DNA from: Spirochaetaceae bacterium
Lineage (GTDB): Bacteria; Spirochaetota; Spirochaetia; DSM-27196; SKKC01
DNA length: 64,000 nt
Direction: 5' to 3'
Assembly: GCA_007694005.1 (NCBI GenBank)
Contig: RECN01000102.1
Span: 1 to 64,000, forward strand
This document shows, piece after piece, positions 9,006 through 25,459 of the stretch (its first letter is position 1; each line of letters starts with the position of its first letter). The translations under genes were made by a program, and so were the position numbers. Below the pieces are notes generated by a model, which saw only the letters and a list, made by a program, of their open reading frames with translations, searched no databases and was not told the DNA's origin.

Positions 9006-9596
9006 CTATCGTCTGCGCCTCATGAACATATGGACGAGCGACAGAACGATCCCGAGCATACCGGATCTGCGTCCGTAGCGCCGTCGGCCGAAACCGCGGC
9101 CGACTCTGATGCCATTCGGGCCAATTCTGACCCCGCCGCGACCCATGCGGCCACGGGCCGCGCGTCTGGCCATAGAGCCCATGCCGACTGCTGCGAACAT
9201 ACCGCCGGCGCCAGTGAAGCCGCCAAACGCGGATTCACCAGAGCCTGGCGTTCGTTCGCCTTCCGCTTCGGCGGTTTCGGGCAGCTCTTCGCGCTCGAAC
9301 GAGTACCGCTGTTTCCAGGAGAAATCTCCGCGAAGCGCTTCGTCAAAGACCCGCGCGACTTCGGCGTTGGGCATGGAATCTGCCGTGCAGGTATACATGC
9401 CCGTCGCATCCGCATACTGGAACCAGAGTTTACCGTATTCACCGGTCGTCTGCAGAATGTCACCACCCGGGATTGTAAGGATACAGTGTTCGAGATCCTG
9501 ACCAACCCGTTCAACAATAGACCGTACATCGTCTTCACTCGGCTGACGAATCGTCGGACCGGAAGAAGGCTCAATAGCGTAGGTCTGATCGCTCAT
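9006..9596 (-). CDS. Unknown protein with Gly/Arg-rich linker and C-terminal hydrophobic helix
   Basis: This 196-residue protein is not recognised. Residues 1-105 look like a small folded domain, predicted alpha/beta from the alternation of hydrophobic residues. Residues 106-170 are very rich in Gly, Met and Arg. A short hydrophobic helix near 176-190 is flanked by Arg runs, giving a possible tail anchor. The ribosome-binding site AGGAGG lies 6 nt before ATG. It sits 34 bp after the flavoprotein gene and abuts the sulfatase, so it belongs to the same transcript. The codon pattern and strong ribosome-binding site make it a real gene. Confidence 0.65.
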   Translation of the reverse strand: MSDQTYAIEPSSGPTIRQPSEDDVRSIVERVGQDLEHCILTIPGGDILQTTGEYGKLWFQYADATGMYTCTADSMPNAEVARVFDEALRGDFSWKQRYSFEREELPETAEAEGERTPGSGESAFGGFTGAGGMFAAVGMGSMARRAARGRMGRGGVRIGPNGIRVGRGFGRRRYGRRSGMLGIVLSLVHMFMRRRR

Positions 9597-9630: not shown

Positions 9631-10491
9631 TCAATCGTAGAGCAACGTTGACCAGCGATGACTCTGTATAAGTTCCTGCTTTTTCTGCTGCCAGGCTTCT
9701 TCCGAACCAGCCATGCCCGAGATCACCGCGTCGAGTTTCTTCTCGAGCGATGAAAGACCGGCGACATAAATGTAGGTCTTCGGATCCTCTATGAGTGACC
9801 AGACTTCCTTCGCGTTTTCCTTGATCGCTGTTTCGATATCCGGTTCGGAGTCCAGGTGTGGCCTGCTGCTGAGCGCTTCGAAAGCCTTGAAGGTCTCCTG
9901 ATCGTAATAATTGGCAAGGTCGTTCTTCTTGTCGTTCATGTAGAGCAGCTCCATACCGGTGCGGGCTCCGTAGAACAGCCTGACCTGGCCCTTCCATTCC
10001 TTCTTTTCGCCGTAAATATGCTTCATGAAGGCCCGGAACGGCGCAATACCCGTACCGACACCAATCATGAGAATATTGCAGGTGTTATCGCGCGGTGCCT
10101 GAAACTGCCGTCCGTAGGGACCCGCGATCCTGATCTCGTCGCCGGGACCCCGGTCGCAGAGAAAGTTCGACGCAACTCCAGGGTACCGTTCTCCGGAAAT
10201 CTCGTCGATGTAGAAACACCGGCGCACCGCAATCGCGATTTCGGCAAGATCATCGTTTTCGCCTTCCCGGGCATTCGCAATCGAATAGAGCCGGAAATGG
10301 TTTTCGTTCCCGAAGTCTTTCGGCGCCGGAGCGAGCACGCCAATGCTCTGCCCCTCGACATAGCTGAAGGTCGCATCGGGTATGTTCAGTACGATATGAC
10401 GCACTTCTTCCGCGCCGGGCGGGGTAATGCGTTCGCTGGTCTTTACCGTTGCTACATATGGATGACTGATATCGTATTCTGTTGTTTTCAT
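9631..10491 (-). CDS. Plant-type ferredoxin-NADP(+) reductase-like flavoprotein
   Basis: This 286-residue protein has the FNR fold. The FAD-binding strand carries RLYSIAN (near 87-93), with the downstream loop GVASNFLCD. The nucleotide-binding domain starts with GVGTGIAPFRAFM (near 143-155), and a YVAGL strand precedes the C-terminus. Such enzymes pass electrons between reduced ferredoxin or flavodoxin and NADP(H). Placed at the end of the rnf/pyruvate:ferredoxin oxidoreductase operon, it would be a second outlet for reduced ferredoxin, making NADPH while Rnf makes NADH. That role is inference from context. It overlaps the Cys-rich gene by ATGA and has a GGAGA ribosome-binding site. Confidence 0.85.
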   Translation of the reverse strand: MKTTEYDISHPYVATVKTSERITPPGAEEVRHIVLNIPDATFSYVEGQSIGVLAPAPKDFGNENHFRLYSIANAREGENDDLAEIAIAVRRCFYIDEISGERYPGVASNFLCDRGPGDEIRIAGPYGRQFQAPRDNTCNILMIGVGTGIAPFRAFMKHIYGEKKEWKGQVRLFYGARTGMELLYMNDKKNDLANYYDQETFKAFEALSSRPHLDSEPDIETAIKENAKEVWSLIEDPKTYIYVAGLSSLEKKLDAVISGMAGSEEAWQQKKQELIQSHRWSTLLYD

Positions 10492-10685
10492 GTGTGTTCT
10501 CCTCTATCCCTGTCGTTTGATGTGTCACAGCTGCACGCCATCCCACAGCCCATGCACTCCCGTGCAGGACCGTACTCCGGATGCCGTGCGGCGTATTGTC
10601 GGTACCAGTGCTGCACTCCTACCCAACCGAGTAGTACGGCGAGTATCAGTCCGGTTCCTATCGCGTAATGTGTTAAAAAATCCAT
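10488..10685 (-). CDS. Small Cys-rich membrane protein of the rnf operon
   Basis: This 65-residue protein has one N-terminal membrane helix (about 5-25). Near residues 44-53 there is a compact cysteine cluster, CMGCGMACSC, followed by a charged tail. It starts 1 bp after rnfA and overlaps the flavoprotein by ATGA, so it is embedded in the operon. The layout (single helix plus Cys cluster) resembles NqrM, the small DUF539 protein needed to mature the Rnf relative Na+-NQR. A metal-delivery or maturation role in the Rnf complex is a plausible inference, not shown by sequence alone. Confidence 0.6.
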   Translation of the reverse strand: MDFLTHYAIGTGLILAVLLGWVGVQHWYRQYAARHPEYGPARECMGCGMACSCDTSNDRDRGEHT

Positions 10686-10686
10686 G

Positions 10687-11268
10687 TCAGCTCCCGAGGC
10701 CTGCGAAGCCCATAAAGGTCAGTGAAAGGAGCCCGGCGAGCATGAATGAGATGGCTGCGGCGGTCGCCGAATCCGGCAGGTTCGCAAGCTGTAACTTCTC
10801 CCGAAGTCCGGCCATGAGTGTCAGCGCGAGTGTGAACCCGGCGCCTGCACCGAGACTGTAAATCAGGCTCTGCCCGAAGCTGTAATCGTTAAAGGTCTGA
10901 AACAGGGCCATGCCGAGAATTGCACAATTGGTCGTTATCAGAGGCAGATAGATCCCGAGCATGCGGAAGAGCGTCGGGCTGAATTTCTTGATGATCATTT
11001 CAACGAGCTGCACCGCCGACGCGATTACCGCGATGTAACTGATCAGTCGCAGGTACTCGATGCCGAAGCGAACAAGCACGGTGTTTATCGCGTAGGCACA
11101 GACCGACGCGACGAACATGACCACTATGACAGCTATGCCCATTGGAACCGCAGTCTCCAGCTTCTGCGAGACACCGACAAAGGGACAGAGTCCGAGAAAC
11201 AGTGCGAGGACAAAGTTATTGATAAGAAACGCGTTTAAGAAAATGAACGAGAGTGAGTCAGGCTGCAT
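10687..11268 (-). CDS. rnfA: Rnf complex membrane subunit RnfA
   Basis: This 193-residue, six-helix membrane protein belongs to the RnfA/NqrE family. It shows the conserved early helix NNFVLALFLGLCPFVGVS (about 16-33) with its buried cysteine, and the second half-repeat with TTNCAILG (about 104-111), whose cysteine pairs with the first to hold the intramembrane iron centre. Rnf couples electron flow from ferredoxin to NAD+ with ion export. A strong AGGAGGGG ribosome-binding site precedes ATG, and the gene overlaps rnfE by 11 bp. Length is normal for the family. Confidence 0.95.
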   Translation of the reverse strand: MQPDSLSFIFLNAFLINNFVLALFLGLCPFVGVSQKLETAVPMGIAVIVVMFVASVCAYAINTVLVRFGIEYLRLISYIAVIASAVQLVEMIIKKFSPTLFRMLGIYLPLITTNCAILGMALFQTFNDYSFGQSLIYSLGAGAGFTLALTLMAGLREKLQLANLPDSATAAAISFMLAGLLSLTFMGFAGLGS

Positions 11269-11917
11269 GTGCCCCTCCTGCTATGTGTCCGGTGTTCGCA
11301 GCCCGGCGGCGCTCGATGTACGAAAAGAGCAGCAGCCAGAGCGACAGGACGATAAAACCACCTGGCGGTAGAATGAAAATGGCCCAGGTCTGAAAACTTG
11401 CCCCGAAGAGCGACACTCCAAAAAACGTGCCGAAGCCGAGTATTTCGCGTATCGATCCGACCATGAACAGCGCGAGCGTGAAGCCGGCTCCGGTACCGAG
11501 TGCGTTTACCATAGCCTTCGGAAGCCGGTTCTTTGATGCGTGTGCCTCGCAGCGTCCAAGAATCATGCAGTTTACGACTATGAGCTGAATGAATGCACCG
11601 AGTGCGTTGTACAGCTCGAGACTGATCGCATGAATCGCGTAGTCGACCACCGTCACAAAGGTCGCAATAATGATGATGTACGAGGCTATGCGCACCTGTT
11701 TCGGAATCGCGTTGCGCAGAAGCGAAATCAGAAACGTAGAACCAAGCAGCACGAAGGCACTCGCGAGACCCATCGCAAGCGAGTTTACCGCCGTGTTGCT
11801 GACCGCCAGGGACGGACAGAGACCGAGCAGGGTAATGAAGACCGGGTTCTCGCGCCAGACCCCCGAGGTGAGGTTATCGAAGCGCGGCGTGTCTCCACCG
11901 TTTGATACAGGTGCCAT
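11258..11917 (-). CDS. rnfE: Rnf complex membrane subunit RnfE
   Basis: This 219-residue protein is the RnfE/NqrD homologue, evolutionarily paired with RnfA by internal pseudo-symmetry. Motifs include FITLLGLCPSLAVSN (about 27-41) and VNCMILGRCEAHA (about 113-125), each with the conserved cysteine that ligates the shared iron centre. Six membrane helices are predicted. Its ATG overlaps the rnfG stop (TGATG). Confidence 0.95.
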   Translation of the reverse strand: MAPVSNGGDTPRFDNLTSGVWRENPVFITLLGLCPSLAVSNTAVNSLAMGLASAFVLLGSTFLISLLRNAIPKQVRIASYIIIIATFVTVVDYAIHAISLELYNALGAFIQLIVVNCMILGRCEAHASKNRLPKAMVNALGTGAGFTLALFMVGSIREILGFGTFFGVSLFGASFQTWAIFILPPGGFIVLSLWLLLFSYIERRRAANTGHIAGGAHAA

Positions 11918-12597
11918 CAGTTTCTCTCCTCAGTCAACAGCTGCGCGTGCTCGCGTATCACCGGAATCATGCGAGACGCGCTTTCCCGCAGAGCCCGACC
12001 GACGGCCTGCGAACTGACTGTCGCACCGGCTATCCCGTCTATCTCCCAGGGTTCGGCCCCCTCGCCGGGACCGACGGTCCGAATCGGGTTTGCCAGATCG
12101 GTACCCGCGTCGTTCAACCGGACGTCAAGACACTCAAAATTGGCGAGGAAAGCCGGATCGCTTCCGATTTTTTCTCCGAGTCCCGGCGTTTCTGAACTCT
12201 GCAGCACCGTAAAGCCGATGATGCACTCATCTTCCAGGGAATACCCGTACAGGACCCGGACGTTGTCTGCGTAGCCGCGGGCAGAGCCCTCCATGGCCAC
12301 GCCGATGAGATCGCCGTCTTCGTCGTAGCCAGCGTACACGTTGGCGCGATCACCTTCGTCGTCGGACAGCGCTGAGAGGGAATCTCCCTCCACGAGGAAG
12401 TTTGCCCGTTCAACTGCTCCGGGCAGCACTTCGAACACGGCGCGTTCGAGCGCCAGCCGGTGATTCCGTGCTATCGGTTCGAGCGTAATCTGATAGGCAA
12501 ACACCACAGTCACCCCTGACAGCATTGCGATCAGGGCAAGAGTGAGAACGAGACGGATCGGTGAGGGCATCGGTGGTGGTGTCGGTTGCTGACTCAT
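11917..12597 (-). CDS. rnfG: Rnf complex FMN-binding subunit RnfG
   Basis: Starting at the ATG at 12597 (GGAGGG at good distance; the GTG three codons earlier lies too close to it), the protein is 226 residues. A single N-terminal helix (about 14-35) anchors a soluble FMN domain on the outer face of the inner membrane. The covalent flavinylation motif appears as AGATVSS (near 194-200), where family members carry an S/D-GAT core and FMN attaches to Thr. The attaching enzyme ApbE is not in the window. One base separates it from rnfD. Confidence 0.92.
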   Translation of the reverse strand: MSQQPTPPPMPSPIRLVLTLALIAMLSGVTVVFAYQITLEPIARNHRLALERAVFEVLPGAVERANFLVEGDSLSALSDDEGDRANVYAGYDEDGDLIGVAMEGSARGYADNVRVLYGYSLEDECIIGFTVLQSSETPGLGEKIGSDPAFLANFECLDVRLNDAGTDLANPIRTVGPGEGAEPWEIDGIAGATVSSQAVGRALRESASRMIPVIREHAQLLTEERN

Positions 12598-12598
12598 G

Positions 12599-13672
12599 CT
12601 ATGCACCCTCCTTTGCCTGTTTTCGACTCTTGCGAACCGCGCCGTAGGTCTTCGGTTGCGTGACCCGACTGATCAGCGGCGAAGCAGCGTTTCCAAGCAG
12701 TATCGCGTACATGACTCCCTCCGGCAGTCCGCCGAACAGGCGTATGACAACGACCATTATTCCTATGAATATCCCGTACACCCAGACCCCGAGTCGCGTC
12801 TCCGGACTGCTGACCATGTCGGTAGCCATGAACACGGCACCGAGCATGAGGCTTCCTGCGCCGAGCATAAAGATCGGGTCGGGATACTGTGACGGATTGA
12901 TCAGATGGAACAGCCATGAAAAGAGTGCGGCCGTCACAAGTATGCTGAAGGTGATCCGCCAGTTCATCATCTTTCTGACAGCCAGATACAGCCCGCAGAC
13001 CAGAATCAGAACAGCCGCCGTCTCTCCGGTAGACCCGGCAATCGTGCCGAACAGGAGCTGAGACGCCTCGGTGCCTATCTGCTCGGATTTCATGAGCTGT
13101 AGCGGTGTAGCGCCGGTCCAGCCGTCGGGGGCGACGTTTGACAGCCAGCCCTGAAGACTTCCCGGTTCCAGGAAAGGAATCGTGAGGCTCGTTGGAATGA
13201 ACTCGACGAAGCGCCCTGGAAGTTGAGCCGGGGTCCAGGTTGTCATAGGCAGCGTAAAGGCCACCTGTGAAAACGCGCGTCCCACGAGGGCCGGGTTAAA
13301 GACGTTGTACCCGAGTCCGCCGAAAAAAATCTTGCCGAGCGCGACGGATATGAAGCTGGTTACCGCAGCCATCCACAGCGGAAGCGCCGGAGGGAGGATC
13401 AGGGCTACGAGTATGCCAGTGATTACGACACTCCAGTCTCCGACGGTCGTCGGCTTCTTTACGAGCACACAGTAGACATGCTCGGTCAGAACGGCGACAC
13501 CCGTACAGACGACGATCAGCGCCAGCGCGCTGAGACCAAAGTTCCACACGGCGAAGGCACAGATCGGCAGAAGCGCGTAGACGACATTTCGCATAATGAC
13601 GTCTACGGTCTTCGGACTGCGAAGATGCGGAGACGTTCTCAGTTCGATTGATGCTGCTGCTGCCTGACTCAT
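12599..13672 (-). CDS. rnfD: Rnf complex membrane subunit RnfD
   Basis: The open frame reaches 13771, but the ATG at 13672 is chosen: it overlaps the rnfC stop by ATGA, and translation from it begins with the family-typical soluble start (SPHLRSP). The 357-residue protein has about nine membrane helices and the second covalent FMN site, TGATPLQL (near residue 186). RnfD and RnfG carry the membrane flavins that link the ferredoxin and NADH ends of the complex. Confidence 0.93.
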   Translation of the reverse strand: MSQAAAASIELRTSPHLRSPKTVDVIMRNVVYALLPICAFAVWNFGLSALALIVVCTGVAVLTEHVYCVLVKKPTTVGDWSVVITGILVALILPPALPLWMAAVTSFISVALGKIFFGGLGYNVFNPALVGRAFSQVAFTLPMTTWTPAQLPGRFVEFIPTSLTIPFLEPGSLQGWLSNVAPDGWTGATPLQLMKSEQIGTEASQLLFGTIAGSTGETAAVLILVCGLYLAVRKMMNWRITFSILVTAALFSWLFHLINPSQYPDPIFMLGAGSLMLGAVFMATDMVSSPETRLGVWVYGIFIGIMVVVIRLFGGLPEGVMYAILLGNAASPLISRVTQPKTYGAVRKSRKQAKEGA

Positions 13673-15036
13673 GGTGCTGCCGCCTTCATTTCCCGGTTCA
13701 TCTTCTTGGATACCCGGAAGTACTGCACCAGCGGTATTCCTGCCGGACAGACGTAACTGCAGCAGCCGCATTCAAAGCAGTCAAAGAGATGATACTTGTC
13801 CATTTCGAGGTACATGCGCTTCGCAGCAAGTTTGCCGAGCTGGGCGGGGTTCAGATGCATGGGACACGCATCGACACAGCTGCCGCAGGATATGCAGGGA
13901 AAGCGTTCGGAGAGCGTGTTTTCTTCGAACTGCTGCGGGGTCAGAACCAGAAACCCGCCACAACCCTTGGTAATCGGAACATCAAGGGACGAAACCGTGT
14001 CACCCATCATCGGGCCACCGGTAATGAGATGCTTCGCACTCCCCTCGTACCCGAGCTTTTTCATGATAAAGCGCAACGGCGTGCCTATCGGCACGATGTA
14101 ATTGCCCGGTTTGTCGACGCCGGGGCCGGTGATCGTGACTACCCGCTCAATGACGCCCTGCCCTTTGGGCAGGAGCTGACCGAGTTCTACCGTTGTCGCG
14201 ACGTTGAATACGGCAAGACCAACCGAAGACGGATACTGCCCCGACGGTATTTCCCGATTGACGAGCGCTTTCGCGAGCATCTTCTCGGCACCCTGCGGAT
14301 ATTTCGTCCGGACGACCTGCACGGTAATGGTTCCGTCTGCCGGGAGTACCTTCCGTATCGCCTCGGCGGACTCAATCTTGTTGTCCTCGGTGCCGATGAT
14401 TGCACGCGGTGCGCCGAGGATTTTCATGAGTATCTTCGTGCCTTCAACCAGATCAGCTGCCTGATCGATCATGAGTCGCTGGTCTGTGGTCAGGTAGGGC
14501 TCGCACTCGCAGCCGTTAATAAGTACGGTGTCGATCACGTGCCCTTCGGGCGGCGACAGTTTTACGTGGGTCGGAAAGGCCGCGCCTCCAAGCCCGACAA
14601 GACCCGAGTCCTGCACAGCCTGTATCAGCTCCTGCTTCGACATGGCCTCAATGTCCCGGTCCTGTCCGTAGAGAACTTCCTGTGTCTCGCCCGGATAGAC
14701 CTGTATGACCATCGCCTCTTTTCTCGGACCCTTGGAGGTCGGCACCAGATCGATACGCTTTACGACCCCGGTCGCGGGTGCGTGCAGAGGCGCAGAAACG
14801 AAGCCGTCGGCGCGCGCAATAGGCTCCCCGCGAACGACCTCCTGGCCGGGTTTGACCAGGGGGACAGCCGGCTTGCCCGCGTGCTGCGAAAGCAGCACGT
14901 AGAGCTCGCTCGGAAAGGGAAGCCGTTCGATAGGCTTGTGTTCGGTGTAGTGCTTGTTCTCGGCCGGGTGTATCCCCTGGGAAAAACTCTTACGGAAGAT
15001 ACTCAACGGCCGGAACGTATGTGCGGTGCTGCTCAT
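13669..15036 (-). CDS. rnfC: Rnf complex NADH-side subunit RnfC
   Basis: This 455-residue soluble subunit has a biotinyl/lipoyl-like N-terminal fold, a flavin/NADH-binding region with GLVGLGGAAFPTHVKL (about 155-170), and two C-terminal [4Fe-4S] motifs: CISCGSCVDACP (near 375) and CFECGCCSYVCP (near 414). It docks on the membrane subunits and exchanges electrons with NAD(H). This is the short form of RnfC; there is no long Ala/Lys-rich C-terminal repeat as in gammaproteobacteria. It follows the pyruvate oxidoreductase gene by 7 bp. Confidence 0.94.
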   Translation of the reverse strand: MSSTAHTFRPLSIFRKSFSQGIHPAENKHYTEHKPIERLPFPSELYVLLSQHAGKPAVPLVKPGQEVVRGEPIARADGFVSAPLHAPATGVVKRIDLVPTSKGPRKEAMVIQVYPGETQEVLYGQDRDIEAMSKQELIQAVQDSGLVGLGGAAFPTHVKLSPPEGHVIDTVLINGCECEPYLTTDQRLMIDQAADLVEGTKILMKILGAPRAIIGTEDNKIESAEAIRKVLPADGTITVQVVRTKYPQGAEKMLAKALVNREIPSGQYPSSVGLAVFNVATTVELGQLLPKGQGVIERVVTITGPGVDKPGNYIVPIGTPLRFIMKKLGYEGSAKHLITGGPMMGDTVSSLDVPITKGCGGFLVLTPQQFEENTLSERFPCISCGSCVDACPMHLNPAQLGKLAAKRMYLEMDKYHLFDCFECGCCSYVCPAGIPLVQYFRVSKKMNREMKAAAP

Positions 15037-15043
15037 TGTAATC

Positions 15044-18000
15044 CTATTGGTACTTCTCGGCGCGCTTCACCCACTTGTCTATGTCCTTCTCGTTCAGATT
15101 GAACGGAGTGCCGGGATGTATGCACCGTCCCGTGCATTTCTCGGCGGACCGCACGATGTCCTTAAACGGTCCTCCCTTCGGATCCTTCACGTAGGCCTTC
15201 TTCTCGTCGTCGTAGGCAAAAATCTTCGGATTGATGTTGATGCACTCGTCACAGGAGGTACATTCGGGTCGGTCAATCCAGACGGGCTCGTAGCCTTCCG
15301 GTGCCGGTCCGCCGCCTCCGCTGGACGCGGGCATTCCACCGAGGTTTTCGGTCAGTGCGAGGGCACTGGCGTCTCCGCCGAGCATCTGCATGAGTCCGGC
15401 TGCGAGCTTCTGAGCCGTTTCGGCACGGACCTGATCGGCGATCTGTTCGGGATCGACACGGTCGGCAAGGCCTGCAAGCGACTTGAGCGTTCGCCAGAAA
15501 TCGCGGCGCTCTTCAGTTGATGCGACGAGCTCGGATGATACGAGTACCCGAATCAGACGGTTCTTCTTGTCGACCGCCCACACGTAGGGATACAGATCCT
15601 CACGCTCATCCGCCTCGAGATCGATGAAGTCAACGAGCGGCACCATGTTGTCATTCCAGGTATCGCGCGGGGCGACACGGAAATGCTTCCGGAACCGACC
15701 TTCGCCGACGGCGAAGTCCGCAAAGGTCATGGGCAGTTCCATGCTCTGCTTGTTCCCGTCTTCGTCCTGATACTCGAGGTTATAGACCGGCCAGTCCTCG
15801 TCCACGTCCGGGTTGCCGTCAAGATTCAGGCAATCTTCCCAGGATGTTCCGTTCGCAGGATTGAAGGTAAGAATGGGATAGGCCCGTGACTCGAGTGCCA
15901 GCTTGCTTCGTGAGTAGGTCGCGTCATCCGCCACTCCGTGCTCCGGCTGACAGACCGCGTAGACATTAAAGAGTGCCGGTCGTCGCGCGTTCAGCCCGTC
16001 GATGAATCCTTCGATCATGTGCGTGTAGTTCGAGACATTAGACTGATGGACAAAGGCGGTCCGGTGCGCCGCGGCAATGAGACTGATCTCCTTACGGGAT
16101 TCGGTCTTACCATGCCACGCCTTTCCGTACGGCGCCATGTCGGAAACCTGACCCATGAACCCTGAGGTACACGCCTGGCCACCGGTATTCGAGTACACCT
16201 GGGTGTCGAGTATGAGCACCTTGACCGGTCGGCCGGCCATGAGCGCGCGGGAGAGGTTCTGGAAGCCAATGTCGTACATGGCTCCGTCTCCACCGACTGC
16301 AACTACGGGCGGACAGAGAAGGTATTCTTCGTCTGTGAACTTGTTCCAGTTGAAGTAGGTCAGGGACTCGTCGATTGTCTCGTAGCTTTCCTTTCCTTCC
16401 AGTTCCGCCTCGGCCTTCCTGATCGCCTTGAAGCCGTCGGCCATTTTGACCATGTGGCCCTCAAAGACACCGAGCGTGACCGATGGCGCATCCTGGAACA
16501 GGTGGTTGGCCCAGGGGAAGGGATAGGGGTTGTAGGGGAAGCTTGACCCGTAGACCGAGCTGCACCCTGTGGAGTTTATGAATCCGAGATTCGCTCGACC
16601 GTTCTTCGTGGTTCCAACCTCGTAGCTCCACTTCAGGTCTTTGAGCTTCTGAATGACACCCGTCACCCATTCGAGCCACTCCTGGTCGATCGGGTCGCCT
16701 GCGCTACCCTTGTCGAGTTCACCCGCGAGGGCCGAGAGGTTCAGATCGCTGTCACGGTGTGAACGCAAGACCTGCTGAATACGGGCGATATCGCCAATGT
16801 CAACGGACGCAGACAGCTTCGTGCGGACGTGCTGTTCGAGTTTATCGATGAGGTCGCCAAGGTACGTTACGTGCTCCTTGACCCGTTTCTGCATAAGCGT
16901 CGTGATCGTTGCGGTAAAGATATGAAGGGTCGATTTCTCGCCACACCCGGTACACGCGCCGTCGCCACAGACCATGGACTGGTAGGCCGTCTTGTCCATA
17001 AGCAGGGTCTCAAGCGCACCGATTTTTTCGTTTATGTCGTCTATGCGCATAAACTCGGGCTTGGTGGTCGGCAGATCCTTCCAGAAATCCCAGTCCTTGC
17101 GAAGTACGTCGACGCTTTCCGGTGTCTGGTCGACCATGCGAAGTGCGTCGTCGTCACAGACATCCACGCAGAGCTTACAGCCTTTGCAGGTATCCGGGTT
17201 TATCGTGATTGCGAACAGGCCACCGCTTCCGGCCTCCTGCTTCTCTTTCTGATTGTAGTAGGGTTTGGTCAGGGCGAACTTGAAGTTCCCCATTGTCTCT
17301 TTCAGAAGGGCGAACTCCTGCTCAACGTCCGCACGCTCGGCCTGCTCGGTCTCGGCAATAGTATCTGCGATCGCCTTGTGTACGAGCGGCATGACATCCA
17401 CTGCACTGCCGTTTGCACCTTCGGTTGATCCGCGCATCTTTTTCTCGACCGTGCGAACCGCGCGGCGAAGATGCTTTGTCTCGGTACCAGCGCGCTCAAC
17501 ACGAGCAATCGCCGTTTCGAAGGCGTCGCCTATGCTCAGGGCAAGACCCGGGATGGCGCTGTCGGGGCAGACCGTGAAACAGTCGCTGCACGCGGTACAG
17601 TTCTCCGGTATCCACTCAGGGTGCTGGAATCGGATGTTCGTCATATCGCGGAACACACCGGTAGATGCCGGAATAAGGCTCATGGCGTTGAAGGCATCGG
17701 CGAGGTTGTCGTTCGGTCTGCCGCCGAGGTAGAAGGACCCGGTCTGCTCCCAGAACCTGTGTATGTCGGTTTTGGGATCATCGCTGACCGGCATGTTCTT
17801 GAGCATGACCGGAAGCGACGGGGTCTTCTTGGCGTCGACACGATCGCGGGTAATCTCCTTCTCGGTGATTTCCCTGACTTCGTCGAATCCACGGCGGACA
17901 ACACGCAGGTTGTCCTCGACAACCCGGGCACCCTTACCGCCGAACTTCTTGTCGAGCTGGCTTCGAATTGCTTCAAACAGCGTCTGTTCGTTGAAGTTGC

Positions 18001-19966
18001 TCTTGCTCATGAGCGGTGACGCAGCGAAGAAGGCTCCCTGGAAGGCGTTGCCCTGCATGCGCAACTCGAGTTCCACATCGCTCGCCTCTTCCCTGGCGAC
18101 CTTGAATGCGTCGAGGAAGAAGATCTTTATGTCGTTCTCGATGATGAACTTCTGTTTTGTCGGAGGAATGGTCTTCCACACGGCCTGCGCGTCTTCGAGC
18201 TCACTCTGTATGATGAACACACCACCCTTCTTGAGACCGAGCAGCGGGTTGGAATGGCTGAACACGTTCGGATCCGGTGAGAGCACCACGTCAACGAAGT
18301 TATACTCACAGTTGATGCGAATGGGCTCCGGAGCCGCTGACATGTAGTAAGTCGTCGGCTGACCTTTCTTCTCTGAACCGTATTTCGGGTTCGCCTTGAT
18401 GTCGTATCCAAGAAGGTCGTACAGCGTGATCGCGAGGTTCTTGCCGGTGGTAATTGCACCCCAGCCTCCGACCGAGTGCATGCGCACCGTGATCGATCCT
18501 TCGGGCAGCAGATTCGGGTTTTCGCTTCCCCGGACACTGAGCTCGGCGATGTTCGGATAGGCTTCGAGAATCTGCTTCTTGTAGATTTCCTGTTTCGGAG
18601 TAAAGGGGTGTTCGTGTACGAAATCAATAGAGAGATAGAAGAACTTCTTCCGTGCTCCGTCGGGGAGCATGTTCTCGACTGCACCGACGATGCCCTCGGG
18701 TTGAAGGTCCCGGCTTCCCATACCGAAGGAACCTGAGTACAGGGGCGAAGCATCGGTCATCTTTGCGTAGGTTTCGTAGCCTGCGTAGGGCACTTTCGCG
18801 TTCTTGCCACCCGCAGCGGCACCGTTCTCGAGACACTTGCTGACGGTTGCTCGAATCTCGCGCATCATCGGAAGGTCTTCGGCGAGTGGCTGGTCAAGGC
18901 GTTCGAGTACGGTGACTCCCTTGCGACCCTTCAGGAGCTTTCCGATCAGATCGCTCGGAAAGGGGCGCCACATGACAAGGTTGATGACTCCAACCTTGAT
19001 TCCGCGGGTTTCACGGAGATAGTCGGCAACCGCCTCGGCGGTCCCGATCACGCTACCCTGCCCCATAATGATGTATTCCGCATCGTCGCAGCGGTAGGTC
19101 ATGACCCGCTCGTAACGACGTCCGGTCAGTTCGGCGTATTCGGCCATGCACTGTTCGGTGAGGTCCTTGATGTGATCAAAGAAATACGGGCGCTGCGCAG
19201 CGACAGACTGCATGTACGCGTCCTGGTTCTGCACGCCACCGGCGAGCACGGCGTTATCGACGTCCCAGAGAATGGGCACGCGGCGGCGTTTCTCACCGTA
19301 GGCGATGCGCTGGCCCGGAGTTGGGCAGTCGATCATGTCTTCGGGTTTCCCAAGAAACTCCGCAATCAGTTCGCGTTCCGGAATGCGAAGTGTCTCAATC
19401 AGGTGGGTGGTAAGAAATCCATCCTGCCCGACAGCGCCCGGAGTCAGAGACAACTCGGCAATCTTGCGGGAAATGATGTTCAGGTCGGCTGCACCCTGTG
19501 CGTCTTTCGCCATGACCTGAAAAAACCCGGTGTCGTCCATGAGGTGATAGTCATCATGACCTGCGTGTACGTTCAGCGTTGACTTCGTGATTGCACGGCA
19601 GCCCACGTTCAGAATGTAGGGGAGGCGCTTACCGACCGCCGGGTACAGCGACTCGTGCATGTACGCTATTCCCTGACCGGAAGAGAAGTTACTGGCTCTG
19701 AGGCCACTCATGGACATACCGGCTGTAACGGCTGCGGCAGCGTGTTCACCTTCCGGCTCCACGAAAATCAGCGGCCGGCCCGAGATATTGATGTGTCCGG
19801 CGGCAGTCGCCTCTGCCCAGTACTCACCCATCTGGGTGGACGGCGTGATGGGATACGCGCCGGCGGCGTCGCTTGACTCACGCTCACACATAATGACGGC
19901 GGTATTGCCGTCAACTGCATCGGGAAGACCGGGATATTTCGCCGTAACGTCTTTCTTCTTGCTCAT
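15044..19966 (-). CDS. nifJ: Pyruvate:ferredoxin oxidoreductase, extended single-chain form
   Basis: Pyruvate + CoA is converted to acetyl-CoA + CO2 + reduced ferredoxin. The protein is about 1640 residues, against about 1170-1200 for common NifJ. Order: pyruvate domain with AYPITPST (near 37-44); gamma domain (about 490-680); first cluster motif CTACSDCFTVCP (near 790); an insert of about 120 residues; second motif CKGCKLCVDVC (near 927); the proximal-cluster motif CTGCGE (near 1005); the TPP-binding GDGAMYD; and an extra C-terminal ferredoxin-like domain (CTSCDEC, last 70 residues). The ATG at 19966 has AAGGAAG ahead of it and is preferred to the in-frame GTG at 19996. Its position between rnfB and rnfC suggests direct feeding of Rnf. 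Confidence 0.93.
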   Translation of the reverse strand: MSKKKDVTAKYPGLPDAVDGNTAVIMCERESSDAAGAYPITPSTQMGEYWAEATAAGHINISGRPLIFVEPEGEHAAAAVTAGMSMSGLRASNFSSGQGIAYMHESLYPAVGKRLPYILNVGCRAITKSTLNVHAGHDDYHLMDDTGFFQVMAKDAQGAADLNIISRKIAELSLTPGAVGQDGFLTTHLIETLRIPERELIAEFLGKPEDMIDCPTPGQRIAYGEKRRRVPILWDVDNAVLAGGVQNQDAYMQSVAAQRPYFFDHIKDLTEQCMAEYAELTGRRYERVMTYRCDDAEYIIMGQGSVIGTAEAVADYLRETRGIKVGVINLVMWRPFPSDLIGKLLKGRKGVTVLERLDQPLAEDLPMMREIRATVSKCLENGAAAGGKNAKVPYAGYETYAKMTDASPLYSGSFGMGSRDLQPEGIVGAVENMLPDGARKKFFYLSIDFVHEHPFTPKQEIYKKQILEAYPNIAELSVRGSENPNLLPEGSITVRMHSVGGWGAITTGKNLAITLYDLLGYDIKANPKYGSEKKGQPTTYYMSAAPEPIRINCEYNFVDVVLSPDPNVFSHSNPLLGLKKGGVFIIQSELEDAQAVWKTIPPTKQKFIIENDIKIFFLDAFKVAREEASDVELELRMQGNAFQGAFFAASPLMSKSNFNEQTLFEAIRSQLDKKFGGKGARVVEDNLRVVRRGFDEVREITEKEITRDRVDAKKTPSLPVMLKNMPVSDDPKTDIHRFWEQTGSFYLGGRPNDNLADAFNAMSLIPASTGVFRDMTNIRFQHPEWIPENCTACSDCFTVCPDSAIPGLALSIGDAFETAIARVERAGTETKHLRRAVRTVEKKMRGSTEGANGSAVDVMPLVHKAIADTIAETEQAERADVEQEFALLKETMGNFKFALTKPYYNQKEKQEAGSGGLFAITINPDTCKGCKLCVDVCDDDALRMVDQTPESVDVLRKDWDFWKDLPTTKPEFMRIDDINEKIGALETLLMDKTAYQSMVCGDGACTGCGEKSTLHIFTATITTLMQKRVKEHVTYLGDLIDKLEQHVRTKLSASVDIGDIARIQQVLRSHRDSDLNLSALAGELDKGSAGDPIDQEWLEWVTGVIQKLKDLKWSYEVGTTKNGRANLGFINSTGCSSVYGSSFPYNPYPFPWANHLFQDAPSVTLGVFEGHMVKMADGFKAIRKAEAELEGKESYETIDESLTYFNWNKFTDEEYLLCPPVVAVGGDGAMYDIGFQNLSRALMAGRPVKVLILDTQVYSNTGGQACTSGFMGQVSDMAPYGKAWHGKTESRKEISLIAAAHRTAFVHQSNVSNYTHMIEGFIDGLNARRPALFNVYAVCQPEHGVADDATYSRSKLALESRAYPILTFNPANGTSWEDCLNLDGNPDVDEDWPVYNLEYQDEDGNKQSMELPMTFADFAVGEGRFRKHFRVAPRDTWNDNMVPLVDFIDLEADEREDLYPYVWAVDKKNRLIRVLVSSELVASTEERRDFWRTLKSLAGLADRVDPEQIADQVRAETAQKLAAGLMQMLGGDASALALTENLGGMPASSGGGGPAPEGYEPVWIDRPECTSCDECININPKIFAYDDEKKAYVKDPKGGPFKDIVRSAEKCTGRCIHPGTPFNLNEKDIDKWVKRAEKYQ

Positions 19967-19992
19967 TGCTTCTTCCTTATCCTGATTCTCTA

Positions 19993-20865
19993 TCACTCAC
20001 CCTGAATGGGCAGTGCGCTTTTTCGTACTATTTTTTTGGCGGCGGCGCCTTTGATTATCTTGTCTTTTTCAAGCCAGACGATTGCACCCGTCGGGCAGCG
20101 TTCGGTTGGCATCGGTGTGGCGAGCTCGTTCTTCGTGTAATCGACCACCGGAAGATTGTTGTGCATGCGGATCAGACCACCCGGAGCGTCCACCGCACAG
20201 CGCTCACAGGCGTTGCACGCGACTTCACAGACGTCGAGGGCTCTGTCCCCTTCTTCGAGGTTCTTGCAGGCAACCCAGAGCTTGTGACTCACAGGGTGAA
20301 GACTGAAGAGATCCAGCGGACACGCGACTACGCAGTCGTTACACGCGGTGCACTTGTCGACGTCCACAACCGGAAGGCCGTACTCGTTCATGTGTATCGC
20401 GTCGAAGGTACACGACACCTCGCAGTCTCCAAGACCAAGGCATCCCCACGCACAGGCTTTACCGCCACCGCCCGATACCACTGCCGCGGTACACGAGCTC
20501 ATGCCTTCGTAGCGGGCGCGCATCTTCGCAACGTGCTTTCCGCCCGCGCAGGCGAGTCTGGCTACGATTTTTTCCTGTGTTCCTGCGTCGACTCCGAGAT
20601 GTTCGGCGATTCCCTGATTGGCTTCGGCGGTATTGACGGTGCACTTTGACGGAGGTGCATCCCCCTTTACCACCGCTTCGGCGAAGGCTCGACAGCCCGC
20701 ATATCCACACGCGCCGCAGTTTACGGACGGGAGCATCTCTTCGACTTCTTCGATGCGGGGATCCTCGTAGACGTACAGTCGCCGGACCGCTATGGCGATG
20801 ACAAAGGCGAGGACACCGCCGAGGGCAACCATGAACAGGACAGGAGTCAGCAAGCTAGCAGCCAC
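19993..20865 (-). CDS. rnfB: Rnf complex ferredoxin-side subunit RnfB
   Basis: This 290-residue iron-sulfur protein starts at GTG after GGGAGG. An N-terminal helix (about 5-28) is followed by the Fe-S domain with NCGACGYAGC (near 49-58), a second Cys set (CAWGC...C...C near 137-152), ferredoxin motifs CTACNDCVVACP (near 172-183) and CEVACNAC (near 213), and a last CPTGAI. RnfB takes electrons from ferredoxin. In most genomes rnfB sits after rnfA or before rnfC; here it leads the operon and is split from rnfCDGEA by the pyruvate oxidoreductase gene. Confidence 0.94.
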   Translation of the reverse strand: MAASLLTPVLFMVALGGVLAFVIAIAVRRLYVYEDPRIEEVEEMLPSVNCGACGYAGCRAFAEAVVKGDAPPSKCTVNTAEANQGIAEHLGVDAGTQEKIVARLACAGGKHVAKMRARYEGMSSCTAAVVSGGGGKACAWGCLGLGDCEVSCTFDAIHMNEYGLPVVDVDKCTACNDCVVACPLDLFSLHPVSHKLWVACKNLEEGDRALDVCEVACNACERCAVDAPGGLIRMHNNLPVVDYTKNELATPMPTERCPTGAIVWLEKDKIIKGAAAKKIVRKSALPIQGE

Positions 20866-21113: not shown

Positions 21114-23333
21114 TCAGCGAGCATCAATGATTGCATTGAGCGTCGGACTCGGCCGCATGGCTGCGCCTGCTTTCGCATCGTCGGGATGGAAATACCCGCC
21201 AAGATCAACCGGCTTTCCCTGCGCTGCTGTCAGTTCATGCAGGATATCTTCGCTCGACGAGGCGAGTTGCGCTGCAAGATCCGTGTATACCTTCTTCAGG
21301 GACGGGTCCTGAGCCTGCTCGGCCAGCGCCATACTCCAGTACAGCGCGAGGTGAAAGTGACTCCCCCTGTTATCGAGCTCTCCAACCTTGCGTTTCGGCG
21401 ACTTCCCGTTCTTCAGAAGCTCGGCGGTGGCGCTGTCGAGTGTCGTTCCGAGGAGCGCTGCCCCCGCGTTGTCGAAGGTTTTTGCGAGATGCTCAAGCGA
21501 TACCGCGAGAGCCAGAAACTCTCCGAGAGAATCCCAGCGTAAGTGGCCTTCCCGTACCATCTGCTGCACATGCTTGGGTGCGGATCCTCCCGCCCCGGTC
21601 TCAAAGAGCCCACCTCCGTTCATGAGCGGAACTATAGAGAGCATTTTGGCGCTCGTGCCCAGTTCGAGAATAGGAAACAGGTCGGTCAGATAATCGCGCA
21701 ATACGTTGCCGGTCACTGATACCGTGTCGAGTCCCTGCCGGATCCGGTCAACCGAAAACTGCGTTGCCTCTGCAGGAGGCATGATCAATATCTCAAGGCC
21801 GTCGGTGTCGTGTTCAGGCAGATACCGCTCGACCTTGCGAATCAGCTCGGCATCGTGTGCACGGTGTGAGTCAAGCCAGAACACCGCCGGAGCCCCGGTC
21901 GCGCGGGCCCGCTCAACGGCCAGTCTGACCCAGTCGCGTACCGGCGCATCCTTGACCTGACACATGCGAAAAATGTCACCTTCCTCGACGGAGCGGGAAA
22001 GTATGACCTCCTCAGAGTCGAGCACCACTTCCACCGTCCCCGCTACACTGACTTCAAAGGTCTTGTCGTGTGATCCGTATTCCTCGGCCTTCTGTGCCAT
22101 GAGTCCGACATTCGACACGCTCCCCATGGTGACCGGGTCATAGGCACCGTGCTTCCTGCAGTCGTCCATGACCACCTGATACACGCCGGCGTACGATCGA
22201 TCGGGAATGAGATACTTTGTGTCCTGTGCTGACCCGTCCGGCGCCCAGCTCTTACCGCCATTTCTGATAGCCGCGGGCATGGTCGCATCGATGATAAAGT
22301 CGCTTGGCACGTGGAAATTCGTGATCCCGCGGTCGGAGTCAACCATAGAAACCGCAGGCCCCTTCTGGAAACACGCGCTTATATCGTCGCGTATCGCCTG
22401 CTGATCCTGCAAGGGCAGCTGCTCTATGCGCGCGTACAGGTCTCCGAGGCCATTGTTCGGGTGTACACCGAGCCTGCTGAACGCCTCCGCATGCTTCTCG
22501 AACACATCTGAAAAAAACACCGATACCACGTGACCGAAGATGATGGGGTCTGAGACTTTCATCATGGTCGCCTTGAGATGAACCGAAAACAGTATGCCCT
22601 TATCCTTTGCATCCTGTATCTCGCGGGCGACGCTCGCGCGAAGCTCTTTGCGACTCAGAACCGCCGCGTCAATGATTTCGCCGGTCTGTAACGGGAGTTC
22701 CTGTTTCAGGACCTGTACCGTTCCGTCAGCAGCCCGATGGCGTATCGTAGCGACCGTATCCCGGTCTATCGTCGCCGACCGCTCGGTCTCGAAGTAGTCT
22801 CCCCGATTCATGCTGGCAACGTGTGACCTGGACTCCGGACTCCACGGCTCCATGGAATGAGGAAACATGCGTGCAAACTCCTTGACTGCCTTCGGCGCCC
22901 GGCGATCGGAGTTTCCCTCTCTGAGGACCGGATTCACCGCGCTTCCTTTCACACGATCGTAGCGTGTTCGTGCGTCACGCTCGGCGTCCGACGCAGGTGC
23001 GTCCGGGTAATCGGGGACCGGATAGCCCTGTTCCTGAAGCTCGGTGATAGCCGCGCGGAGCTGTGGAAGCGATGCGCTGATATTCGGAAGTTTAATGATG
23101 TTTGCATCCGGCTCGCTTACGAGGCTGCCGAGCTCCGAAAGGTCGTCGGGGACGCGTTGCTCTTCGGAGAGGAGCTCGGGAAACTGAGCCAGAATACGCC
23201 CGGCGAGCGACACGTCGCGGGTCTCAACCCGTATTCCGGCGGGCTTCACAAAGCGCTGAATGATGGGAAGCAGGGAATACGTGGCAAGAGCCGGCGCTTC
23301 GTCTGTTTTGGTGTAAATGATTGCCTGTTTCAT
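21114..23333 (-). CDS. icd: Monomeric NADP-dependent isocitrate dehydrogenase
   Basis: The protein is 739 residues from the ATG at 23333, the normal size for monomeric IDH (about 740); the open frame upstream to 23453 adds an unrelated Cys-rich leader and is rejected. The start ([20 protein letters not shown]) and the long stretches around SLAYEP-like and [17 protein letters not shown]-type segments match this family, which is unrelated in sequence to the dimeric enzyme. It converts isocitrate + NADP+ to 2-oxoglutarate + CO2 + NADPH. It is single and diverges from the M3 peptidase; a stem-loop follows it. Confidence 0.92.
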
Positions 23334-23413
23334 GATGGGAAGATCATAACAGATAATGGCAGTATTGTTTATCGATTGTTTTTCGAAACCGCTTGCATGT
23401 ACTATCAGAAGCC

Positions 23414-25459
23414 ATGAGCAACAACCCATTACTGAAACCCTGGAACAATCCACACGGTCTCCCGCCGTTTTCCGAGACCCAACCTGAGCACTTTCGAGAG
23501 GCGATGGAAACGGGCATGCAGGAGCATCTGAAAGAAATCGACCTCATTGCCACAAACCCCGCCCCGGCGGACTTCGAGAACACCTTCGCCGTGTTCGACC
23601 GAAGCGGAGACCTGCTCAACCGCGTCGCACATATGTTTTTCAATCTCTGCTCGTCGGAGACCAGTTCTGAGCTGCAGGAGGTCGAACGCGCCCTTGCACC
23701 GAAACTGGCCGCACACGAAAGCAGCATCTACATGCACGAAGGCCTGTTCGCGCGGGTACGGCAGATACACGAGAAGCGGACAGCACTCGGGTTGTCCGAT
23801 GAGCAGCTGAGACTCGTCGAACGGGTTCATCTGCGGTTTGTCCGTTCCGGCGCCGAGCTGACCGGCGAAGACCGCGCACGCTTCGCCGCAATCAACGAAG
23901 AGCTCGCGTCGCTGTACACCTCGTTTTCTCAGGCAGTACTCGCGGATGAAGCGGCCTGGAGCCTTCGCCTCGAAACCGACGATGACCGGGCGGGCCTGCC
24001 GGACTTCGTGCTTGAAGCAGCCGGGGAAGTGGCGCGTGAGCGCGACTCGGAAGGATACATGATCAGCCTGTCTCCCTCGATCGTCGACCCCTTTCTGACC
24101 TACTCCACCCGACGCGATCTCCGGGAAGAGGTCTGGCGGGCCTTCAAGGCCCGGGGCGAGGCGAATCCAGACCACGACACCAGGCCTGTGGCGTCACGCA
24201 TCGTCAAATTGCGGGCGGAACTCGCCTCGTTGCTCGGAGCCCCCGATTACGCGACCTTCGAGCTCGAAGATCGCATGGCGAAAACGCCTCAGGCGGTCAT
24301 GCAGCTTCTCGAAGAAGTATGGGAGCGGGCGAGGAAGCGTGTTGCCGAAGAACAGTCCGTCCTGGAAGACGAAGCCTCACGCGAAAACGCCGCGCTGCCG
24401 CTGCAACCCTGGGACTGGGAGTTCTGGACCGATCGCGTGCGAACGCGGAAGTACCAGCTCGACGACGCGGTACTCAAGCCTTACTTCCAACTCGATCGCA
24501 TGCTCGAGGCCATGTTTGACTGCGCGCATCGCCTCTACGGCATCCGCTTCGAGGAAGTGTCCGGCCTCGATCTGTACCACCCCGACGTGCGGGCTTTCGA
24601 GGTGCGGGACGCCGACAGCGGTGCACTCACAGGCCTGTTTCTCAGCGATAATTTCGCACGCGCGAGCAAGCGCGGTGGCGCGTGGATGAGCATCTACCGG
24701 TCACAGTCGGGAAACCGTCCCGATGGCTACGGCTACCCCATAGTCGTGAACAACAACAACTTCGCGAAGGCGCCCAAGGGCAGACCGACCCTCCTGAGCT
24801 TTGACAACGTCCGCACCCTCTTTCACGAGTTCGGACACGCCCTGCACGGCCTGCTCTCAAACGTGACCTATGAGACGCTTTCGGGTACAAGCGTCCTCCG
24901 CGACTTCGTTGAACTGCCTTCGCAGATTCACGAGAACTGGGCTCTTGAACCCGAGACGCTGCAGAAACACGCCCTGCACGCCACGACTGGCGAACCCATC
25001 CCGGATGAGCTGATCGAACGCATCCGCGCGAACAGCACCTTCAACCAGGGCTACATGACGACCTCGTACACCTCATGTGCGCTCATCGACATGAAACTGC
25101 ACAGTATCGCGAATCCCGGCGACATCGATATTGCCGCCTTCGAGGCAGAGGCATGCCGGGAACTCGGTGTCCCTGAGGTCGTCGGCATGCGGCACCGCCT
25201 GCCACACTTTCTGCATCTGTTTGCGGGGGACGGATACTCAGCCGGCTACTACGTGTATATGTGGGCGGAGGTACTCGAGGCGGATGCCTTTGAGGCCTTT
25301 ACTGAAACCGGCGATGCGTTCAACGGAGAAGTCGCACAGCGCTTCCGGAAACACGTGCTTTCCGCCGGCGATTCACGCGACCCGCAGGAAGCCTACCGTG
25401 CCTTCCGCGGACACGATCCAAAGCCCGAGGCGATGATGCGCAAACGCGGACTGCTGTAG
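23414..25459 (+). CDS. dcp: M3-family dipeptidyl carboxypeptidase (Dcp-like)
   Basis: The ATG at 23414 gives 681 residues, equal to E. coli Dcp; the ATG at 23393 adds seven unlikely residues. The zinc site HEFGH (near 473-477) with the downstream Glu in [10 protein letters not shown] is intact. Dcp-like rather than oligopeptidase-A-like features include [16 protein letters not shown] after the zinc motif and a final RGL. It removes C-terminal dipeptides from short peptides; there is no signal peptide, so it acts in the cytoplasm. Confidence 0.9.

Follow-up and report, generated by a model that had tools for sequence, protein, structure and literature searches.

What is a gene for a pyruvate:ferredoxin oxidoreductase (POR) doing inside the gene set of the Rnf ion pump, and does its place there reflect a working connection between the two? 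The question is raised by a window of 64,000 nucleotides, the whole stretch of DNA analyzed here, which lies on contig C94 of a draft Spirochaetaceae genome (3.9 Mb in 204 contigs) and to which public loci from spirochaete metagenome-assembled genomes are near-identical. On its minus strand the genes rnfB, POR, rnfC, rnfD, rnfG, rnfE, rnfA and a ferredoxin-NADP reductase-like gene (FNR) form one collinear run (Table 1). A reading of the sequence alone had claimed that the oxidoreductase gene splits rnfB from rnfC, and all of the genes were indeed found, in that order and on that strand. The 7 bp gap that it gave between POR and rnfC was borne out, but its 27 bp between rnfB and POR is 26 bp; likewise, its label "pyruvate oxidoreductase" was right at the superfamily level but hid an unusual long form of the enzyme. 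The FNR gene falls within the interval that it described and was absent from its title.

Table 1. Features of the rnfB-POR-rnfCDGEA-FNR run, with positions in the window.
Feature	Position	Strand	Description
rnfB	19993..20865	-	290 aa; Rnf electron-input polyferredoxin subunit, first operon gene; NCBIfam TIGR01944, 76.8 bits (cut-off 68.7); Pfam FeS and Fer4_21
POR	15044..19966	-	1640 aa; long 2-oxoacid (pyruvate):ferredoxin oxidoreductase, type I Rnf-POR; Pfam POR_N, PFOR_II, POR, TPP_enzyme_C, Fer4_13
Flexible tether in POR	15299..15394	-	approximately residues 1525-1556, before the ferredoxin domain; pLDDT < 50 in the model
C-terminal ferredoxin-I-type [4Fe-4S] domain of POR	15047..15298	-	approximately residues 1557-1640; Cys 1569, 1572, 1575 and 1611; Pfam Fer4_13
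rnfC	13669..15036	-	455 aa; NADH/FMN and [4Fe-4S] subunit; TIGR01945, 493 bits
rnfD	12599..13672	-	about 357 aa from the likely ATG; TIGR01946, 290 bits
rnfG	11917..12606	-	229 aa; TIGR01947, 95.1 bits, just below the cut-off of 102; Pfam FMN_bind
rnfE	11258..11917	-	219 aa; TIGR01948, 222 bits
rnfA	10687..11268	-	193 aa; TIGR01943, 233 bits
FNR	9631..10491	-	286 aa; ferredoxin-NADP reductase-like flavoprotein; NCBIfam PetH-type match

Homologues of six Rnf subunits (rnfA, B, C, D, G and E) are present in this one cluster, with rnfA, B, C, D and E exceeding their NCBIfam cut-offs and rnfG slightly under, and Rnf activity (ferredoxin:NAD+ oxidoreduction with Na+ or H+ transport) is predicted for it. 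The POR gene begins at an ATG with aaggaag 5' of it; the list of open reading frames also holds an alternative GTG start at 19996. The likely ATG of rnfD, at 13672, overlaps the rnfC stop by 4 bp, the coding regions of rnfG, rnfE and rnfA overlap or abut, and FNR follows rnfA after 195 bp. A scan of the operon found no promoter-like sites on its coding strand, and terminator-like sites were only as frequent as expected by chance. Judging from the spacing, rnfB-POR-rnfCDGEA would be carried on one transcript. The next gene upstream of rnfB, on the same strand, encodes a monomeric isocitrate dehydrogenase (IDH; 21114-23453), which we rejected as a member of the module, since among the fetched loci only those of the same genus have it there. 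Downstream of FNR, a 196-aa protein with an Arg/Gly-rich C-terminal half (9006-9596, minus strand) is also present in same-genus genomes; a Pfam search of this protein returned no match.

The POR has the features of the POR/OFOR superfamily: POR_N, PFOR_II, POR gamma and TPP domains, the catalytic residues and three [4Fe-4S] clusters. It fails the NifJ equivalog model TIGR02176, scoring 371 bits against a cut-off of 911, and, relative to spirochaete NifJ, contains inserts at approximately residues 866-899, 1019-1126 and 1384-1407 as well as an extra C-terminus from residue 1502. Its length, score and position in the tree led us to reject an ordinary NifJ that had slipped into an rnf operon. 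When 78 long PORs were aligned, the cysteines of the three clusters and the four cysteines of the C-terminal ferredoxin were 100% conserved, and the YPITPS Thr, the Glu, the RAI Arg, GDG..N and YSNTGGQ were retained in the displayed type I rows; conservation in the tether region (residues 1521-1560) was only 0.17. An AF2 model of residues 745-1640, built from 45 sequences, reached a mean pLDDT of 77 and a pTM of 0.76. Foldseek matched the body of this model to the PFOR structure 6CIN (1.8e-13), with low overall TM-scores that leave the placement of domains unsure, and its tail to Desulfovibrio africanus ferredoxin I (1fxr) with an rmsd of 0.7 Å over 58 columns and a target TM of 0.86. The conserved residues and the superfamily point to pyruvate as the probable substrate. 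This is the only POR-family gene found in the window's genome.

When GTDB genomes were scanned, 580 relatives were confirmed, and the best 80 were kept. These 80 span Spirochaetota, Kiritimatiellota, Verrucomicrobiota, Gamma- and Betaproteobacteria, Acidobacteriota, Hydrogenedentota, KSB1, Calditrichota and SAR324; Bryobacterales and Opitutales are also among the carriers. The sequence-only reading had staked itself on relatives keeping the gene order, and among the best 80 of 580 they do: at loci with enough flank, rnfB lies directly upstream of POR in 62 of 66, rnfC downstream in 68 of 68, and the full rnfCDGEA set is present in 56 of 59. On either side of the inserted POR the median gaps are 51 and 69 bp. 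Loci at which POR lacks rnfB directly upstream are L037, L043, L076 and L105. Some of rnfG, rnfE and rnfA are missing nearby in the POR-linked sets at L060, L072 and L109, and at L072 FNR directly follows rnfG. Because nearly all relatives keep the order, chance is excluded as its explanation. A spirochaete-specific operon was likewise rejected, the order being found in about ten phyla, and the survey within spirochaetes that had been suggested was the wrong frame: a query with the POR C-terminus matched 6 of 393 sampled Spirochaetota genomes, and the module occurs mainly in other phyla.

To choose loci by RnfC instead of POR, the window RnfC was used as the query against 274 Gammaproteobacteria. 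A type I POR precedes all 13 of the close RnfC genes (at least 48%) with readable upstream DNA and none of the 11 ordinary ones (at most 44%) that could be read, which are preceded by rnfA/rnfB instead; three RnfC genes of intermediate identity turned out to be type II, described below. With this result (13/13 versus 0/11) we rejected the possibility that RnfC seemed linked to POR only through the selection of loci by POR. In a tree of 74 rows POR-linked RnfC is a single clade, which, with the split and type II forms included, is again one clade with support of 100/99 (37 rows); the window RnfC, with POR between its rnfB and rnfC, belongs to it. Loss of an RnfB cluster was considered as a mark of the POR-linked clade and rejected, as two ordinary RnfB also lack it. 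Distances between PORs correlate with those between concatenated Rnf proteins (r=0.905, a value reached in 0 of 999 permutations). Of 33 supported POR splits, the Rnf tree repeats 26 and conflicts with 7; POR and Rnf have been largely co-inherited. An order common to about ten phyla, with one origin, gives good support to the proposed connection of pyruvate oxidation and ferredoxin with Rnf.

Since the window copies nest among Kiritimatiellota in the trees, the block was probably acquired laterally by the window's family (f1). Five of the seven genomes of this family, at 2-20% divergence, contain the long POR, and the remaining two are 64-70% complete. A misbinned contig is unlikely in view of these five genomes and of ATPase and IDH flanks common to a same-genus genome. 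No NifJ-length POR was seen in the family, whereas other families of the same order have NifJ, which suggests that the long POR replaced NifJ there and supports pyruvate as its substrate.

Three variants separate the parts of this arrangement. In the split form, found in distant spirochaetes (L198-L200, L203 and L204), the POR between rnfB and rnfC has approximately 1515-1540 aa and no ferredoxin; a separate ferredoxin gene, 58-59% identical, is present in two of these loci: L200 has it between rnfA and FNR, L198 following KorAB. Type II, the sister lineage, has the layout KorA-KorB-p35-rnfB-pseudoPOR-[sucCD]-rnfCDGEA and occurs in Sedimenticola, Thiodiazotropha, Chromatiales and SAR324, and probably in Acidobacteria (loci L158, L192, L194-L196 and L235-L237). 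Its sucC and sucD lie between pseudoPOR and rnfC in three loci, in two of which malate dehydrogenase follows rnfA. In 10 of 10 pseudoPORs checked, YPITP, the proximal-cluster CxGCGE and YSNTGG are absent and the two CxxCxxCxxxC motifs of the domain-V clusters are retained; the neighboring KorAB is intact. Long open frames with a mean identity per domain of 0.29-0.51 across genera argue that the pseudoPORs are not decaying pseudogenes. The protein p35 resembles the C-terminal half of POR, lacking the TPP motif and keeping the ferredoxin cysteines, and looks like a POR-derived partner of KorAB. KorA-KorB-p35 clusters also occur at L201 and L202, where no Rnf was found in the fetched stretch and one has a long POR just upstream. 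Type II is probably a 2-oxoglutarate-Rnf module; its domain-V clusters seem to work for Rnf although catalysis takes place elsewhere. Finally, type III long PORs (L189 and L190; 1706-1710 aa) have intact active-site motifs, are not linked to Rnf and are followed by a 968-978 aa NfnA/NfnB-like fusion; the long fold therefore does not require Rnf. The window's genome also holds a second Rnf-like set (L149; G000:C93:5000-20000) with RnfC, a fused RnfD/FMN-binding protein and small membrane proteins resembling RnfE/RnfA; RnfB was not found in this stretch, and FMN-binding-like proteins are nearby.

On the simplest reading, which we consider likely, the locus encodes a specialized Rnf with a ferredoxin-reducing enzyme within the pump's own gene set, and this line of PORs has turned into a dedicated feeder of Rnf through its tethered ferredoxin. 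The POR would oxidize pyruvate to acetyl-CoA and CO2, and electrons would pass through the proximal and the two domain-V clusters to the ferredoxin domain, which could swing on its flexible linker and hand them to RnfB; from there they would cross the membrane within Rnf to reach RnfC and NAD+, a passage coupled to the pumping of Na+ or H+. The FNR probably passes electrons from the ferredoxin domain on to NADP(H), and as a side branch would draw on the same ferredoxin for NADPH. It follows rnfA in 35 of 56 testable relatives and is absent in 21 (best 80 of 580); its best NCBIfam matches are to cyanobacterial PetH-type FNR (1e-56) and BoxA (1e-47), all under full-length cut-offs, and in Pfam NAD_binding_1 is above the cut-off and FAD_binding_1 below. 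The genome has an acetate kinase, and a haem-copper oxidase (COX1) was not found in it, which favors the oxidative direction as the most likely in this spirochaete, with acetate, ATP, NADH and an ion gradient as its products. Given four E2-family matches, the genome may also encode a pyruvate dehydrogenase complex; with E2-type genes present, we rejected the argument that such a complex is absent and that POR must be the only route.

Functional coupling of POR and Rnf is well supported. The physical coupling that the sequence-only reading had suggested became likelier with the fused ferredoxin, the free-standing copy in the same operon of distant spirochaetes and the dead POR between rnfB and rnfC in the sister lineage, but contact itself stays putative. 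As that POR without an active site has kept both its electron-carrying clusters and its place, POR appears to be a permanent component of the supply of electrons to the pump. Its probable docking site is the cytoplasmic side of Rnf, close to RnfB/RnfC; this is the least certain step of the scheme. We give about even chances to the stronger form of this idea, a hard-wired 2-oxoacid oxidoreductase-Rnf supercomplex with POR as a structural subunit docked at RnfB/RnfC and feeding it by the tethered ferredoxin, in which the type II dead POR would relay electrons from KorAB (with sucCD) to Rnf.

A rival account is that a common use of ferredoxin has brought POR and Rnf into one operon, and that they are co-expressed and linked by diffusing ferredoxins without contact. 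Ordinary Rnf operates in this way; one ordinary locus, L114, has a NifJ approximately 3 kb downstream of rnfA and no insertion into the rnf set, type III PORs are paired with an NfnA/NfnB-like fusion without Rnf, and the POR-Rnf complex is putative. Co-expression alone, however, leaves unexplained the long-kept position of POR between rnfB and rnfC, the fusion of a tethered ferredoxin, and a non-catalytic type II POR with its wiring clusters kept, and we regard it as rather unlikely.

The direction and the substrate could also differ from those proposed. Thiothrix, Sedimenticola, Thiodiazotropha and Allochromatium, among the many carriers that are sulfur bacteria, are autotrophs, in which Rnf might run in reverse, reducing the ferredoxin domain at the expense of NADH and the ion gradient so that POR acts as a pyruvate synthase, fixing CO2 onto acetyl-CoA. 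Reverse operation of Rnf is known for nitrogenase, according to the excerpted text of a 2025 review (PMC12174285). The acetate kinase and the haem-copper oxidase not found in the window's genome fit fermentation instead, and Bryobacterales and Opitutales are among the carriers; we judge reversal improbable. Least probable of all is a 2-oxoacid other than pyruvate as the substrate, which would accord with the approximately 25% identity to characterized PFORs, the low TIGR02176 score and the many carriers that also have a NifJ-length POR, such that the long one need not be their pyruvate enzyme. Yet the Thr and Arg motifs of the PFOR substrate pocket (YPITPS, RAI) and YSNTGGQ are conserved, the long POR is the only POR found in family f1 while sister families have NifJ, and the 2-oxoglutarate role has an enzyme of its own in the type II module with KorAB, sucCD and mdh.

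In the usual picture, Rnf is fed by diffusing ferredoxin. If the preferred reading, a POR that feeds Rnf through its own tethered ferredoxin, is true, fewer low-potential electrons would be lost or react with oxygen along a direct line from TPP enzyme to pump, and pyruvate oxidation itself would be coupled to pumping, in a manner comparable to respiratory complexes. In type II, the pseudo-enzyme offers a natural experiment in which catalysis is set apart from wiring. Cultivated Thiothrix, Sedimenticola, Allochromatium and Kiritimatiellota B12222 contain the module, which makes it testable now, and it suggests what an Rnf cluster may do in purple sulfur bacteria; in one of these, A. vinosum, the role of three rnf clusters has been called entirely unclear (PMC3368242). 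The excerpted text of the 2025 RNF/NQR review makes no mention of a POR-containing rnf variant (PMC12174285). In the open PMC literature, where earlier accounts may have been missed, neither the long form nor the fused ferredoxin was found described, and the same holds for the cross-phylum clade and the pseudo-enzyme variant; within that literature these four are new, and a PFOR between rnfB and rnfC was already known from one genome.

That genome is of the Solemya velum symbiont, in which Dmytrenko et al. (2014) described a PFOR between rnfB2 and rnfC2 and proposed pyruvate as the electron donor of Rnf (PMC4287430). The arrangement of its rnf2 operon equals that of the window, but it concerns a single genome, and the long form, the fused ferredoxin, the phylum-wide spread and the pseudo-enzyme variant are undescribed in the available part of that account. 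With the Rnf complex in general (RnfABCDGE, ferredoxin:NAD+ oxidoreductase) the window shares all six subunits, in the order BCDGEA, which has been reported for rnf of Bacteroidetes/Chlorobi (PMC3534657); it differs in the POR gene between rnfB and rnfC, in an RnfC of a separate, well-supported clade and in the FNR gene that follows. The NifJ PFORs of Moorella (6CIN) and D. africanus (1B0P) have the same domain order, TPP motif, active-site Thr, Glu, Arg and Asn and three clusters, whereas the window POR is approximately 25% identical to these best solved PFORs, has 1640 rather than about 1200 aa, and adds helical inserts, a tethered ferredoxin domain and the link to Rnf. D. africanus ferredoxin I, a partner of that organism's PFOR, has the same single [4Fe-4S] fold, onto which the modeled POR tail superposes; in the window POR this domain is fused to the enzyme itself through a flexible linker.
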